Source: Chloroflexia bacterium SDU3-3
GTDB lineage: Bacteria > Chloroflexota > Chloroflexia > Chloroflexales > Roseiflexaceae
DNA: 64,000 nt
Reading direction: 5' to 3'
Assembly: GCA_009268125.1 (NCBI GenBank)
Contig: WBOU01000007.1
Coordinates: 248,001-312,000 of the forward strand
In this document: positions 53,045 to 58,195 of the stretch, in pieces
How positions within the stretch are numbered: position 1 is the stretch's first letter
Layout: every line of letters begins with the position of its first letter
Notes under the pieces: generated by a model
The model's database searches: none
Told to the model about the DNA's origin: nothing
The model's input: only the letters and a program-made list of their open reading frames with translations
Position numbers and translations under genes: made by a program

Positions 53045-53188
53045 GTCTGGCACGGGCGGCGTTTGGTCGCGCCAGAACATGACCAGAACATTGCAAAAAA
53101 ATTTATAGTGCGTGCCAATCTGCACGATCTCGCCTATGTGGGATTGTCCACATGCTTACCCTGTTATCCACAGTGCTGTGGATAATTC

Positions 53189-53217
53189 TTGACAGACATA
53201 CACCTCAATTTTATAGC
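53189..53217 (+). promoter_or_regulatory. Possible dnaA promoter overlapping the origin hairpin
   Basis: TTGACA at 53189-53194, then 17 bases and TATAGC at 53212-53217 (four of six matches). The -10 lies in the left arm of the 23-base inverted repeat and DnaA boxes flank it, which would suit autoregulation by DnaA. Confidence 0.45.
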
Positions 53218-53247
53218 ATCTGTATGCTGTAAAATTGAGATGTATGT
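53196..53247. other. 23-bp inverted repeat within the origin candidate
   Basis: Arms 53196-53218 and 53225-53247 match at 21 of 23 positions, with a 6-base loop TCTGTA. Both mismatches would still pair as G-U in RNA or be tolerated in a cruciform. Neither arm is a DnaA box. Confidence 0.85.
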
Positions 53248-53556
53248 ATAGGAAAAAGAAGGTTATCCACATGTTAAGAGGCTCTGGATTGACATATGTC
53301 GGGCGAAAATCCCCAGTTTCCCCCATCACTACCCGTATACGAATGCCTAGGAGTATAAGGAATTGTAATAGAGATGCTGGGGTTTTCAGCTTGAAAAGGA
53401 TAGCTCCATACGGTATGATCTAGCCCATTGACGCAGAAATAGTTCTTCACCGTCTACCCCTGTATACCTGCTCCTGTCAGCGATTGACGTAACGCAGGCT
53501 CCGCCCCAAAGGGCTGAGCAGATCTAGACGTGTGTCTCTTTTTTGGGAGGTTGACA

Positions 53557-55161
53557 GTGAATCTGGCCAAGATCTGGTCCACGGCCCTTGGCACGATGCA
53601 GGTTCAGACATCGCGGCAAGAATTTAACACATGGCTGCGTGTAGCCTCCCTGCTCTCCATCGAAAATGGAACGGCCACCATCGGTGTGCCGAGCACATTC
53701 TATAAAGAGGGTTTGGAGAATCGCTACATGGGGCCGCTGCGCGAGCTGCTGAGCGATCTGGTCGGCTTCCCCGTGCAGCTGCGTGTGGTGATCGCCCCGA
53801 CCCAGATCGCCCGGCCTGACGCGCGGGTGCCTGCGCGTGAGCAAGGGCAGGATCGCGATGCCATGGAATCGCCCGACGAACCCAGCCCCACATGGCAGCC
53901 GCCGCAGCAGGCGGGCTACCACGCCGGGGGCGGCAGCTGGTACGGCGGCCCGAATGGCGGCGTAAACCCTGGCGCGATGCCGCCCCAGCCCCCCGCCGAG
54001 CGCGGCGGCTATGGCGGCGGCCAGCTCTACGGCAGCGACGGCGGCTACGCCCAGCCGCCCACGGCCTCCAACTCCTACGATCGGCGCACGCCGGTGCAGC
54101 AGCTCGACCTGACCACCGCGATGCGCTCGGGGATGCTGAACGCCCGCTATACCTTCGACCGCTTCATCGTGGGGCCGTCGAACCGGCTGGCCTCGGCGGC
54201 CTGCATGGCGGTGTCCGAGCACCCGGCGCAGGCCTACAACCCGCTGTTCCTCTACGGCGGCGTGGGCCTGGGCAAGACCCACCTGCTGCATGCCATCGGC
54301 AACTATGCGCTGGACCGCGACCCCGAGATCAACGTGCTGTACGTCTCGTCCGAGAAGTTCACCAACGATCTGATCAACGCCATCCGCCGCCAGCAGACTG
54401 AGGAGTTCCGCATCCGCTATCGGAACATCGACGTGCTGCTGATCGACGACATCCAGTTCATCGCTGGCAAGGAGTCGACGCAGGAGGAGTTCTTCCACAC
54501 GTTCAACACCCTGCACTCGGCTGGCAAGCAGATCGTGATCTCGTCCGACCGCCCGCCCAAGGCCATCCTCACGCTGGAGGAGCGGCTGCGCTCGCGCTTC
54601 GAGTGGGGCCTGATCGTGGATGTGCAGACCCCCGACCTGGAGACGCGCACGGCCATCCTGCGCACCAAGGCCGAGACGATGTCGACCCACATCCCCGCCG
54701 AGGTGATCGACTTTCTGGCCCACCGCATCCAGTCGAACATCCGCGAGCTTGAGGGCTGCCTGAACCGCGTGGTGGCCTACGCGCAGATGACCAACAGCAC
54801 GATCTCGATCGAGTCGGCCACCTCGGCGCTCACCGAGCTGCTCGACACCTCGCGTCGTAAGCGCATCACATCCGACGCCATTCTCAAAGAGGTTGCCGAT
54901 TTCTACGGCGTGGATGTGCGGGCGCTCCAGGGCCGTGGTCGCAGCCGCAATATCGTGGTGCCGCGCCAGGTGGTGATGTACCTGCTGCGCGAGGAGACCG
55001 AGTCCAGCCTGATGGACATTGGCCGATTCCTCGGCGGGCGCGACCACACCACCGTGATCTATGGCTGCGAGAAGATCTCGACCGAGATCACCACGGATTC
55101 GCGGCTGCGCCAGGAGATCATGACCATCCGCGATCGGCTCTACCAGGGCAGCCCAGCCTAG
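53557..55161 (+). CDS. dnaA: Chromosomal replication initiator protein DnaA
   Basis: 534 aa from a GTG with GGGAGG seven bases upstream. Domain I (about 1-85) starts [18 protein letters not shown] long Gly/Pro/Gln-rich linker (about 100-190) is larger than in E. coli. The AAA+ domain has Walker [16 protein letters not shown], Walker [11 protein letters not shown] and sensor [10 protein letters not shown]. Domain IV has the DNA-binding signature [17 protein letters not shown]. It opens oriC. No dnaN follows; the next plus-strand gene is a nuclease. A strong hairpin terminator ends the gene. Confidence 0.98.
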
Positions 55162-55476: not shown

Positions 55477-56286
55477 ATGAAGGCGCGGACGACTGCTTTC
55501 CTGTTGGTGATCATCGGGCTGCTGTTCGGCACGGGCACCCCCGCCCAGGCTTCCACCACCGCATCCAACCAGATGCTGCTTGGCAACCCTAGCGGCGCGA
55601 CGACAAGCACGGCGAACTACGCCAACTACCTCATCCAGCGCGGCGAGTACGCGCTCTCGTACAATCGCGACGCGGGCATCCCCAACTGGGTGAGCTGGCA
55701 CCTAGACAGCACCGACATCGGCAGCGCCGATCGCTGCGACTGCTTCTCGCCCGATACCAGCCTGCCCAGCGGCTGGTACCGCGTGACCACCAGCAACTAC
55801 ACCGGCAGCGGCTACGACCGTGGCCACATGGCCCCCTCGGGCGACCGCACCTCGTCCGATGCCCATAACCAGGCGACCTTTGTGATGACCAATATCATCC
55901 CGCAGCACGCCGATAACAACCAAGGCCCGTGGGCCAGCCTAGAGAACTATGCCCGCAGCCTGGCCACGGCGGGCAACGAGCTGTACATCATCAGCGGCGG
56001 CACTGGCTCGAAGGGCACCATCGCCAGCGGCAAGGTGAAGATCCCCGCGTACACCTGGAAGGTGATAGTGGTGCTGACCAAGGGCAGCAACGATCTGTCG
56101 CGCGTCACCACCTCCACCCGCGTGATCGCGGTGCTGATGCCGAACAGCTCGGGCATTCGCTCGAACACATGGCAGAGCTACCGCACCACCGTGGACAAGA
56201 TCGAGTCGATGACGGGCTACGATTTCCTCTCGAATGTCTCGACCAGCATCCAGAGCGTGATCGAGGCCAAGACCGACGCGCTGTAG
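55477..56286 (+). CDS. Secreted DNA/RNA non-specific endonuclease (NucA-like)
   Basis: 269 aa. Signal peptide ending near AQA (about 25). Beta-beta-alpha-metal nuclease of the NucA / S. marcescens family: the catalytic motif YDRGHMAPSGDR gives His117, and metal-ligand region NIIPQHADNNQGPWASLE supplies the Asn and Glu. Length and motif spacing match Anabaena NucA. It degrades DNA and RNA outside the cell. The facing gene encodes a NuiA-type inhibitor of exactly this nuclease group. GAGGAAA supports the ATG. Confidence 0.95.
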   Translation: MKARTTAFLLVIIGLLFGTGTPAQASTTASNQMLLGNPSGATTSTANYANYLIQRGEYALSYNRDAGIPNWVSWHLDSTDIGSADRCDCFSPDTSLPSGWYRVTTSNYTGSGYDRGHMAPSGDRTSSDAHNQATFVMTNIIPQHADNNQGPWASLENYARSLATAGNELYIISGGTGSKGTIASGKVKIPAYTWKVIVVLTKGSNDLSRVTTSTRVIAVLMPNSSGIRSNTWQSYRTTVDKIESMTGYDFLSNVSTSIQSVIEAKTDAL

Positions 56287-56300
56287 CTTCTGGCGCATAC

Positions 56301-56341
56301 AAAAGCCCCGCTCTGGTGTCATTGCCAGAGCGGGACTTTTG
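56301..56341. terminator. Bidirectional terminator between nuclease and inhibitor
   Basis: Arms AAAAGCCCCGCTCTGG and CCAGAGCGGGACTTTT pair with one mismatch and carry A-run and T-run at opposite ends, so it can end both convergent transcripts. Confidence 0.9.
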
Positions 56342-56351
56342 TGTGCCCTTG

Positions 56352-56747
56352 TTAGGTCTGCACCACCTGGGTCTGCAAGCCCACAAGCGCAGCATCATCG
56401 GCCTTGCCGAGGATAAAGATGTCGATTGTGCCGCTCTCGCCCACGCGGTAGACGGTGGCGTCGGGCAGGGTGGCCCGGATGGTCTCCAGCAGGTGCTGGA
56501 ACTGCCGCAGTGTGCGCCGCTCCTCTGGCCCGTGCCAATCGCGCGGGGTGACGGCGGGCCGAAAGAAGGCGTCGAGCGCCTGGGTGGTCTGCGGCTCGCC
56601 AGGGTGGCCAGCGGCCTGGGCTAGGGCGCTGGGGATGTCGGCCCCAGGCGGCAGCGCGAACGGCGCGAATGGCGCGTCGGTCTCGCTGGGGAAGAGCAGC
56701 CCAGCGCTGGCCTCGGCTAGCTGGGCGAGGATGGCATCCTTCTGCAT
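56352..56747 (-). CDS. NuiA-family nuclease inhibitor
   Basis: 131 aa. Resembles the NuiA family (inhibitor of Anabaena NucA, about 135 aa) along its length: LLFPSETDAPFAPF near the N-terminus, LDAFFRPAVTPRDWHGPEE, FQHLLETIRATLPDATVYRVGE and the end VGLQTQVVQT. No signal peptide, so it acts inside the cell, where it would block nuclease before export. The gene faces its likely target across a 65-base gap holding a shared terminator. AAAAGG precedes the ATG. Assignment is from recognised sequence pattern, not from a search. Confidence 0.9.
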   Translation of the reverse strand: MQKDAILAQLAEASAGLLFPSETDAPFAPFALPPGADIPSALAQAAGHPGEPQTTQALDAFFRPAVTPRDWHGPEERRTLRQFQHLLETIRATLPDATVYRVGESGTIDIFILGKADDAALVGLQTQVVQT

Positions 56748-56842: not shown

Positions 56843-58195
56843 CTACTGCCCCTGGTTGACGACCACGGGCCACTGGGCGGTGCCAAACGGCTGGTTCTTC
56901 AGCGTGATCAGCAGGGTGGCGCTGTTGGCGCTCAGCGGGCGGTCGATCACCGCCACGCCCTTGGCCTGCATGTTCGGCTCGGCGCGGATCTCGGCGGGCT
57001 TGGAGAGCGCGTCGTTGATGGTGTAGACCGTGCCGTCCTCGTCGCTGATCGTGATGTTGTCGGACGTGAGCGGCAGGCTGGCCGACTCGCTGGCCATGTT
57101 ATTCTGCAGGCTCCATGTGATCGCGATCTTGCCGTCGCAGAACGAGACATCCTCCAGCGTCACCACCACATCCGGCGAGAGCGCCGGGGCCGCGCCCACC
57201 ACGCCCACGTTCTGCCAGCTGTCGTTGCTGCGGTCGCGCTTGCGCCCGATCCACTCGAATACCGAGCTGGTGCAGCTGTTCTGCCCCGCCGCACCGGTGA
57301 ACTGGTCGAGCGTGCCGCCGATCGGGCCGGATGTGCCCACCAGCAGCGTGCTGGGCTGGTCGGCGCGGGGCGCAGCTAGGGGCGGGCGGAACACATAGCC
57401 GCTGGCTAGGGCCAGGGCCAGCACGGCGAACCCCGCCGCCGCCTTGCCCGTCCATGTGCCCAGCGCGGCGCGCGCCAGCTGGGGCAGGCTGGGCCGCGCT
57501 GCGGGCGCGGCTGGGGCATCGGTGGCTGGCGCTGGCTCGGCTGCCTTGGTCGGCATCTCGTCGCCCACCTCCTCCCAGCGCGGGATGACGCCCTCGATCA
57601 GGGTGTTCACCTCGCCCCAGCGGGTCAGGTGCAGCAGCTCGGGGATGGCCTGCATCTCCTCGGGGCTCAGGTCGATCTCCGACGAGCGCTCGGTGACAAG
57701 GTAGGTCGGCAGTTCGTCCAGGCCCTTCATATCGACCTTCCAGTCGATGTCGACGTGGGAGCCTTCCTGGACGGTGGGCGCGATCACGATCAGGCGCTTG
57801 CAGGTGCGGAAGTCGATCGAGGAGGACTTGTTGGGCGAGAGGAACTCGCCGCGCTTCTCATTGAGGAAGTTGATCAGGCTGTAGTAGTACGAGATAACCT
57901 GATTGTAGGGGTTTTTGCGCCCTGGGTTGAGCCGCTTGCGCACGCCATTGCTGCTTTCGGCGAACCAGGGGCCGTTCACATCGCCAAAAACCTTGCCATC
58001 GCACTGCTTCAGCTCGATGATAAAGATGGCGTCCTGCTTTATGATCACTAGGTCGACGGCGCGGCCGCCGACACTGAAGTTGGCCAGGATAAGGTACAGA
58101 CCTTCGAGGCGCTCAAGGCCGTTGGCCAGCGCCACAATCGCCCGCCGCTCATTTGGGTGCTCGGGCTTTTCGCCTATCCATACTTGAACTGCCAC
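56843..58195 (-). CDS. NERD-domain membrane protein
   Basis: 450 aa. Residues about 15-190 are a NERD (nuclease-related) domain with the PD-(D/E)XK-like pattern Asp48...Glu61-Leu-Lys63 in VDLVIIKQ..IIELKQCDGKVFG. A Pro/Ala linker and one membrane helix (about 251-268) lead to a Ser/Thr-rich extracytoplasmic domain (about 280-450). Thus a cytoplasmic nuclease-like head sits on an outside-facing beta domain. The start is a GTG with GGGAGGT upstream. Function unknown; DNA processing or sensing of incoming DNA are guesses. Confidence 0.85.
   Translation of the reverse strand: MAVQVWIGEKPEHPNERRAIVALANGLERLEGLYLILANFSVGGRAVDLVIIKQDAIFIIELKQCDGKVFGDVNGPWFAESSNGVRKRLNPGRKNPYNQVISYYYSLINFLNEKRGEFLSPNKSSSIDFRTCKRLIVIAPTVQEGSHVDIDWKVDMKGLDELPTYLVTERSSEIDLSPEEMQAIPELLHLTRWGEVNTLIEGVIPRWEEVGDEMPTKAAEPAPATDAPAAPAARPSLPQLARAALGTWTGKAAAGFAVLALALASGYVFRPPLAAPRADQPSTLLVGTSGPIGGTLDQFTGAAGQNSCTSSVFEWIGRKRDRSNDSWQNVGVVGAAPALSPDVVVTLEDVSFCDGKIAITWSLQNNMASESASLPLTSDNITISDEDGTVYTINDALSKPAEIRAEPNMQAKGVAVIDRPLSANSATLLITLKNQPFGTAQWPVVVNQGQ

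Follow-up and report, generated by a model that had tools for sequence, protein, structure and literature searches.

A relative of the cyanobacterial NucA/NuiA nuclease–inhibitor pair in Chloroflexia bacterium SDU3-3

Introduction

Barnase and barstar are the familiar example of an exported nuclease matched by a tight cytoplasmic inhibitor. The pair described here is like them only in the outline of its working, as the protein families are different. Its closest described relatives are NucA and NuiA of Anabaena (Nostoc) sp. PCC 7120, for which the structure of the complex is available (PDB 2O3B). The work on this complex names a metal ion bridge in its title, and we take Thr135, the C-terminal residue of NuiA, to be the residue that lies at the active-site metal of NucA. 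NuiA is a competitive inhibitor whose binding site overlaps the DNA site of the nuclease (PMC5758888). The pKd of the complex is 11.49 and its interface includes an E24–D121 contact (PMC5374557); the same paper places D121 on the inhibitor, whereas 2O3B carries it on the nuclease chain. When nucA expression inside the cell is forced, it is lethal to a cyanobacterium (PMC4890671).

Here we analyse a nuclease/inhibitor locus in a 64,000-nucleotide stretch of the genome of Chloroflexia bacterium SDU3-3 (hereafter the window, to which all positions refer). Our analysis confirmed that the locus is clearly related to the well-studied cyanobacterial NucA/NuiA pair, and this known, structurally solved kind of nuclease–inhibitor pair is now extended to another Chloroflexota lineage. 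The likeness covers catalytic residues, interface residues and the inhibitor fold. Unlike the Anabaena pair, the window locus is of chromosomal type, belongs to Chloroflexota and stands beside dnaA; its nuclease has two extra Cys residues and its inhibitor a penultimate Gln.

Organization of the locus

The unit and its immediate neighbours comprise the following features:

53530..55161, + strand: dnaA, the neighbour upstream of the nuclease gene, outside the unit (domain search, gene order in relatives)
55477..56286, + strand: NucA-type DNA/RNA non-specific endonuclease, 269 aa, with a predicted N-terminal Sec-type signal peptide (PF01223, PDB relatives, catalytic residues)
55477..55551, + strand: predicted signal peptide MKARTTAFLLVIIGLLFGTGTPAQA, cleavage expected after AQA (basic n-region, hydrophobic core and A-x-A read from the sequence)
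56295..56346, both strands: bidirectional intrinsic terminator, a hairpin with a T-rich tail on each strand (inverted repeat and folding)
56352..56747, − strand: NuiA-type nuclease inhibitor of 131 aa without a signal peptide (PF07924, PDB relatives, AlphaFold2 model, E22/T131)
56843..58195, − strand: NERD-domain protein, encoded on the strand of the inhibitor gene and upstream of it, outside the unit (domain search, sister genome)

The nuclease and inhibitor ORFs converge tail to tail across a gap of 65 bases, and the SDU3-3 genome holds exactly one PF01223 gene and exactly one PF07924 gene. Between the two stop codons lies a 22-nt inverted repeat, 91% complementary and followed by a T-rich tail on each strand. 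Its hairpin has a folding energy of −42.5 kcal/mol on one strand and −41.0 kcal/mol on the other, with z about −9.3 relative to shuffled sequences. Both the two facing ORFs and the shared bidirectional terminator of the original prediction were therefore recovered. The plasmid copies of Trichormus variabilis, near-identical to the Anabaena pair, are convergent as well. Their identity to the window proteins is about 52% for the nuclease and about 39% for the inhibitor; the gap between the matches there is 17 bases, in contrast to the longer gap of the window that accommodates the terminator hairpin.

The nuclease

The original prediction of a secreted NucA-type nuclease proved well founded. In a profile search, the protein matched PF01223 with 202.7 bits (cut-off 23, E 7.9e-60), and its nearest solved structures are those of Anabaena NucA itself (1zm8 and 2o3b_A, E about 1e-80). 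Alignment equates R86, D114, R115, H117, N148, E156 and R160 with R93, D121, R122, H124, N155, E163 and R167 of NucA. The DRGH motif thus corresponds to D114-R115-G116-H117, and the metal-site Asn and Glu to N148 and E156. All 50 nucleases aligned share the equivalents of NucA R93, H124, N155, E163 and R167. Apart from what appears to be a classical Sec export signal, the 269 residues contain the PF01223 catalytic domain and nothing else, and the protein is presumably exported and active as a nuclease. A peculiarity of the window protein is a Cys-x-Cys (C87 and C89, 55735-55743) beside the conserved Arg86, which is absent from every other aligned nuclease.

The inhibitor

The assignment of the facing gene to the NuiA family likewise held when put to a profile search: the protein scored 113.7 bits against PF07924 (cut-off 22.1), while its match to NuiA_2 was weak (23.1 bits, under the cut-off of that profile). 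Its nearest solved structures are both NuiA (2o3b_B and 1j57, E about 1e-21). The AlphaFold2 model (pLDDT 90.7) could be superimposed on 2o3b_B both by Foldseek (E 6.9e-14, TM 0.90) and by VIA-align (Z 20.5, 1.7 Å over 130 residues), and the top structural match outside NuiA reached only Z 6.6. The protein is a true NuiA member, and its model has the NuiA fold. No signal peptide was seen in the inhibitor on reading its sequence.

Residues at the interface point the same way. Inhibitor E22 corresponds to NuiA E24, and the C-terminal T131, followed by the stop codon, corresponds to T135; the equivalents of these two residues are invariant across the aligned inhibitors (42/42), and in 16 of 16 Chloroflexota homologues the terminal Thr directly precedes the stop codon. 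The equivalent of W76 is kept in the window inhibitor too. At the penultimate position the window protein has Gln, as opposed to Glu in 41 of the 42 sequences, and its residue 119 is Ala in place of Gly. This penultimate Gln is a natural variant usable for specificity tests.

Proposed function

We consider it very probable (about 0.9) that the pair represents an exported environmental nuclease with a cytoplasmic inhibitor as a safeguard. The reading is supported by both family memberships, the catalytic and interface residues, the inhibitor fold, the co-occurrence of the two genes and a convergent layout that recurs across phyla. According to it, the signal peptide would export the nuclease, which would break down extracellular DNA and RNA, either for nutrients or for clearance. 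The cytoplasmic inhibitor would capture those nuclease molecules that fold before export. In doing so it would fill the DNA site, with the carboxylate of the C-terminal Thr placed beside the catalytic metal and the conserved Glu near the catalytic Asp, and the cell's own nucleic acids would be spared. An inhibitor directed at the neighbouring nuclease had been proposed at the outset; we judge the proposal right, and we infer from the features listed above both the binding and the physiological purpose of the pair. What speaks against this reading is the penultimate Gln of the inhibitor, the two Cys that set the nuclease apart from its homologues, and NuiA genes that stand away from any nuclease in Herpetosiphon (see below).

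Distribution in Chloroflexota

Among 82 genomes of the order of SDU3-3, 21 carry both genes, two the nuclease only, 59 neither, and none the inhibitor only (Fisher p about 1e-17, uncorrected for kinship). The absence of inhibitor-only genomes from the order supports the idea of a cytoplasmic safeguard. In a sample of 400 Chloroflexota genomes, 18 had PF01223; 14 had NuiA, each of them together with PF01223.

A survey of adjacency, which the original prediction had called for, found the two genes side by side in 14 of the 21 genomes of the order with both. They are convergent in SDU3-3 and in two genomes of family f4 (G440 and G441); in 11 genomes of family f2 they are in tandem, with the inhibitor first. 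The f4 pairs have nucleases 69–72% and inhibitors 40–46% identical to those of the window, and differ from the window in their neighbours. The Chloroflexaceae pairs (Chloroploca, Viridilinea, Oscillochloris) join the same two families as in the window, but in tandem on one strand, inhibitor first, and with a nuclease about 50% identical to that of the window. No adjacency was seen in seven genomes of Herpetosiphonaceae (family f3), which have three nucleases per genome. Six Herpetosiphon genomes (G281, G110, G102, G078, G043 and G034; loci L002-L007) each have one NuiA and three NucA-type nucleases, not adjacent. Linkage between NuiA and a nuclease is thus not required, since NuiA adjoins no nuclease in these six genomes. 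With three nucleases per inhibitor, they offer material for specificity tests.

Second copies of NuiA, about 36% identical to that of the window and with the Glu24/Thr135 equivalents kept, are present in Chloroploca (L015, L016 and L017), and the fetched flanks contained no nuclease beside them. Such copies, together with a NuiA on a Deinococcus plasmid that also lacks an adjacent nuclease, could be taken to mean that the inhibitor homologue of the window has lost its target or acquired another, and that its proximity to the nuclease is merely historical, and the substitutions at the penultimate position and at residue 119 would fit. However, the fold and the equivalents of E24, W76 and T135 are all kept, and the order includes no genome with an inhibitor but without a nuclease. 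We therefore regard a change of target as extremely unlikely.

Herpetosiphon is predatory, and its three such nucleases with one inhibitor per genome might suggest antagonism in the manner of a bacteriocin, with the nuclease released against competitors and the inhibitor protecting the cell from incoming nuclease. NucA-fold nucleases are indeed known as polymorphic toxin domains, but the immunity partners listed for Tox-NucA are Imm36, SUKH and NTF2 rather than NuiA (PMC3482391). Moreover, a polymorphic toxin has its toxin domain at the C terminus of a delivered multidomain protein, whereas the window nuclease consists of a signal peptide and a single catalytic domain and lacks trafficking, repeat and pore domains. 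It has no known route of entry into other cells, and PADLOC returned no match for either the nuclease or the inhibitor. With no delivery module found, the toxin/immunity-like unit of the original prediction finds no support, and we consider antagonism very unlikely.

Distribution beyond the phylum

Twenty-four plasmid records, nearly all of them cyanobacterial, contain NuiA; a nuclease lies alongside in 22, and in 21 of those 22 the two genes are convergent. In named genomes a nuclease was found near 21 of 28 NuiA loci, in a scan whose narrow NuiA alignment under-samples distant NuiA loci. Convergent pairs were seen there in Pontibacter, Aphanocapsa and Abditibacterium; the pairs of Planctomycetota and Chloroflexaceae were in tandem. 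Phage carriage found no backing (0 matches in 50,697 phage records), nor was any carriage confirmed in viral contigs.

The frequency of the convergent pair on Nostocales plasmids raises the question of an addiction-like mobile cassette, spread by plasmids and kept because loss of the inhibitor would be lethal while the nuclease persists. Patchiness in the family of SDU3-3, where one of 26 genomes has NuiA, would agree with such a cassette, as would the unrelated gene that fills the slot of the pair in a sister genome (G404, see below) and the lethality of forced intracellular nucA expression in a cyanobacterium (PMC4890671). On the other hand, type II toxin–antitoxin systems are co-transcribed and cytoplasmic, whereas here the genes are convergent, separate transcripts would be divided by the terminator, and the nuclease has a predicted export signal. 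We also looked for flanking repeats or an integrase as marks of recent insertion, and saw none at the window copy. Taken together, addiction appears highly improbable. A broader proposal would make the convergent pair a mobile cassette that passes between plasmids and chromosomes in distant phyla. Selection would then act on it as a module of addiction or antagonism, and not just as a scavenging enzyme plus safeguard; this seems to us very unlikely.

Plasmids of Hymenobacter, Spirosoma and Runella (H34, H37, H40, H43 and H56) encode NucA-type nucleases 42–53% identical to that of the window, with no NuiA detectable on the same plasmid; another inhibitor may be present beside these nucleases.

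In a quick nuclease tree, the window protein groups with nucleases of Herpetosiphonaceae, cyanobacteria and Pontibacter (support 81–89), apart from the tandem-type sequences of Chloroflexaceae and Planctomycetota. This grouping suggests, with modest supports, that gene layout broadly follows lineage. The f4 nucleases, the closest to that of the window by identity, were fetched after the tree was built and are not part of it. The inhibitor tree did not give the exact place of the window NuiA.

The dnaA neighbourhood

The original prediction had placed the nuclease and its inhibitor in a compact unit next to dnaA, and it is here that the relatives disagree with it. In G404, the closest relative by DnaA among the genomes compared, scpB, dnaA and the NERD gene are all retained, but the slot between dnaA and the NERD gene holds, instead of the pair, an unrelated ORF that resembles short-chain dehydrogenases (named by eye from its sequence). 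The f4 pairs, in turn, are flanked by other genes and not by dnaA. Because G404 keeps the dnaA site without the pair and the f4 pairs are elsewhere, the adjacency to dnaA is incidental. On the same grounds we rejected both a functional link between the pair and dnaA and the inclusion of the NERD protein in the unit as its third member.

The NERD-domain protein, 450 aa long, is 73% identical to its counterpart at the same place in G404, and its N-terminal part has a weak match to candidate defence models (PDC-M16A). Upstream of dnaA, an AT-rich segment carries three perfect copies of the DnaA box, TTATCCACA, within about 110 bases (53164-53271); two of them are on the + strand and one is on the − strand. 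No other perfect box occurs in the 64-kb window, and this segment is likely, judging by its sequence, to be oriC.
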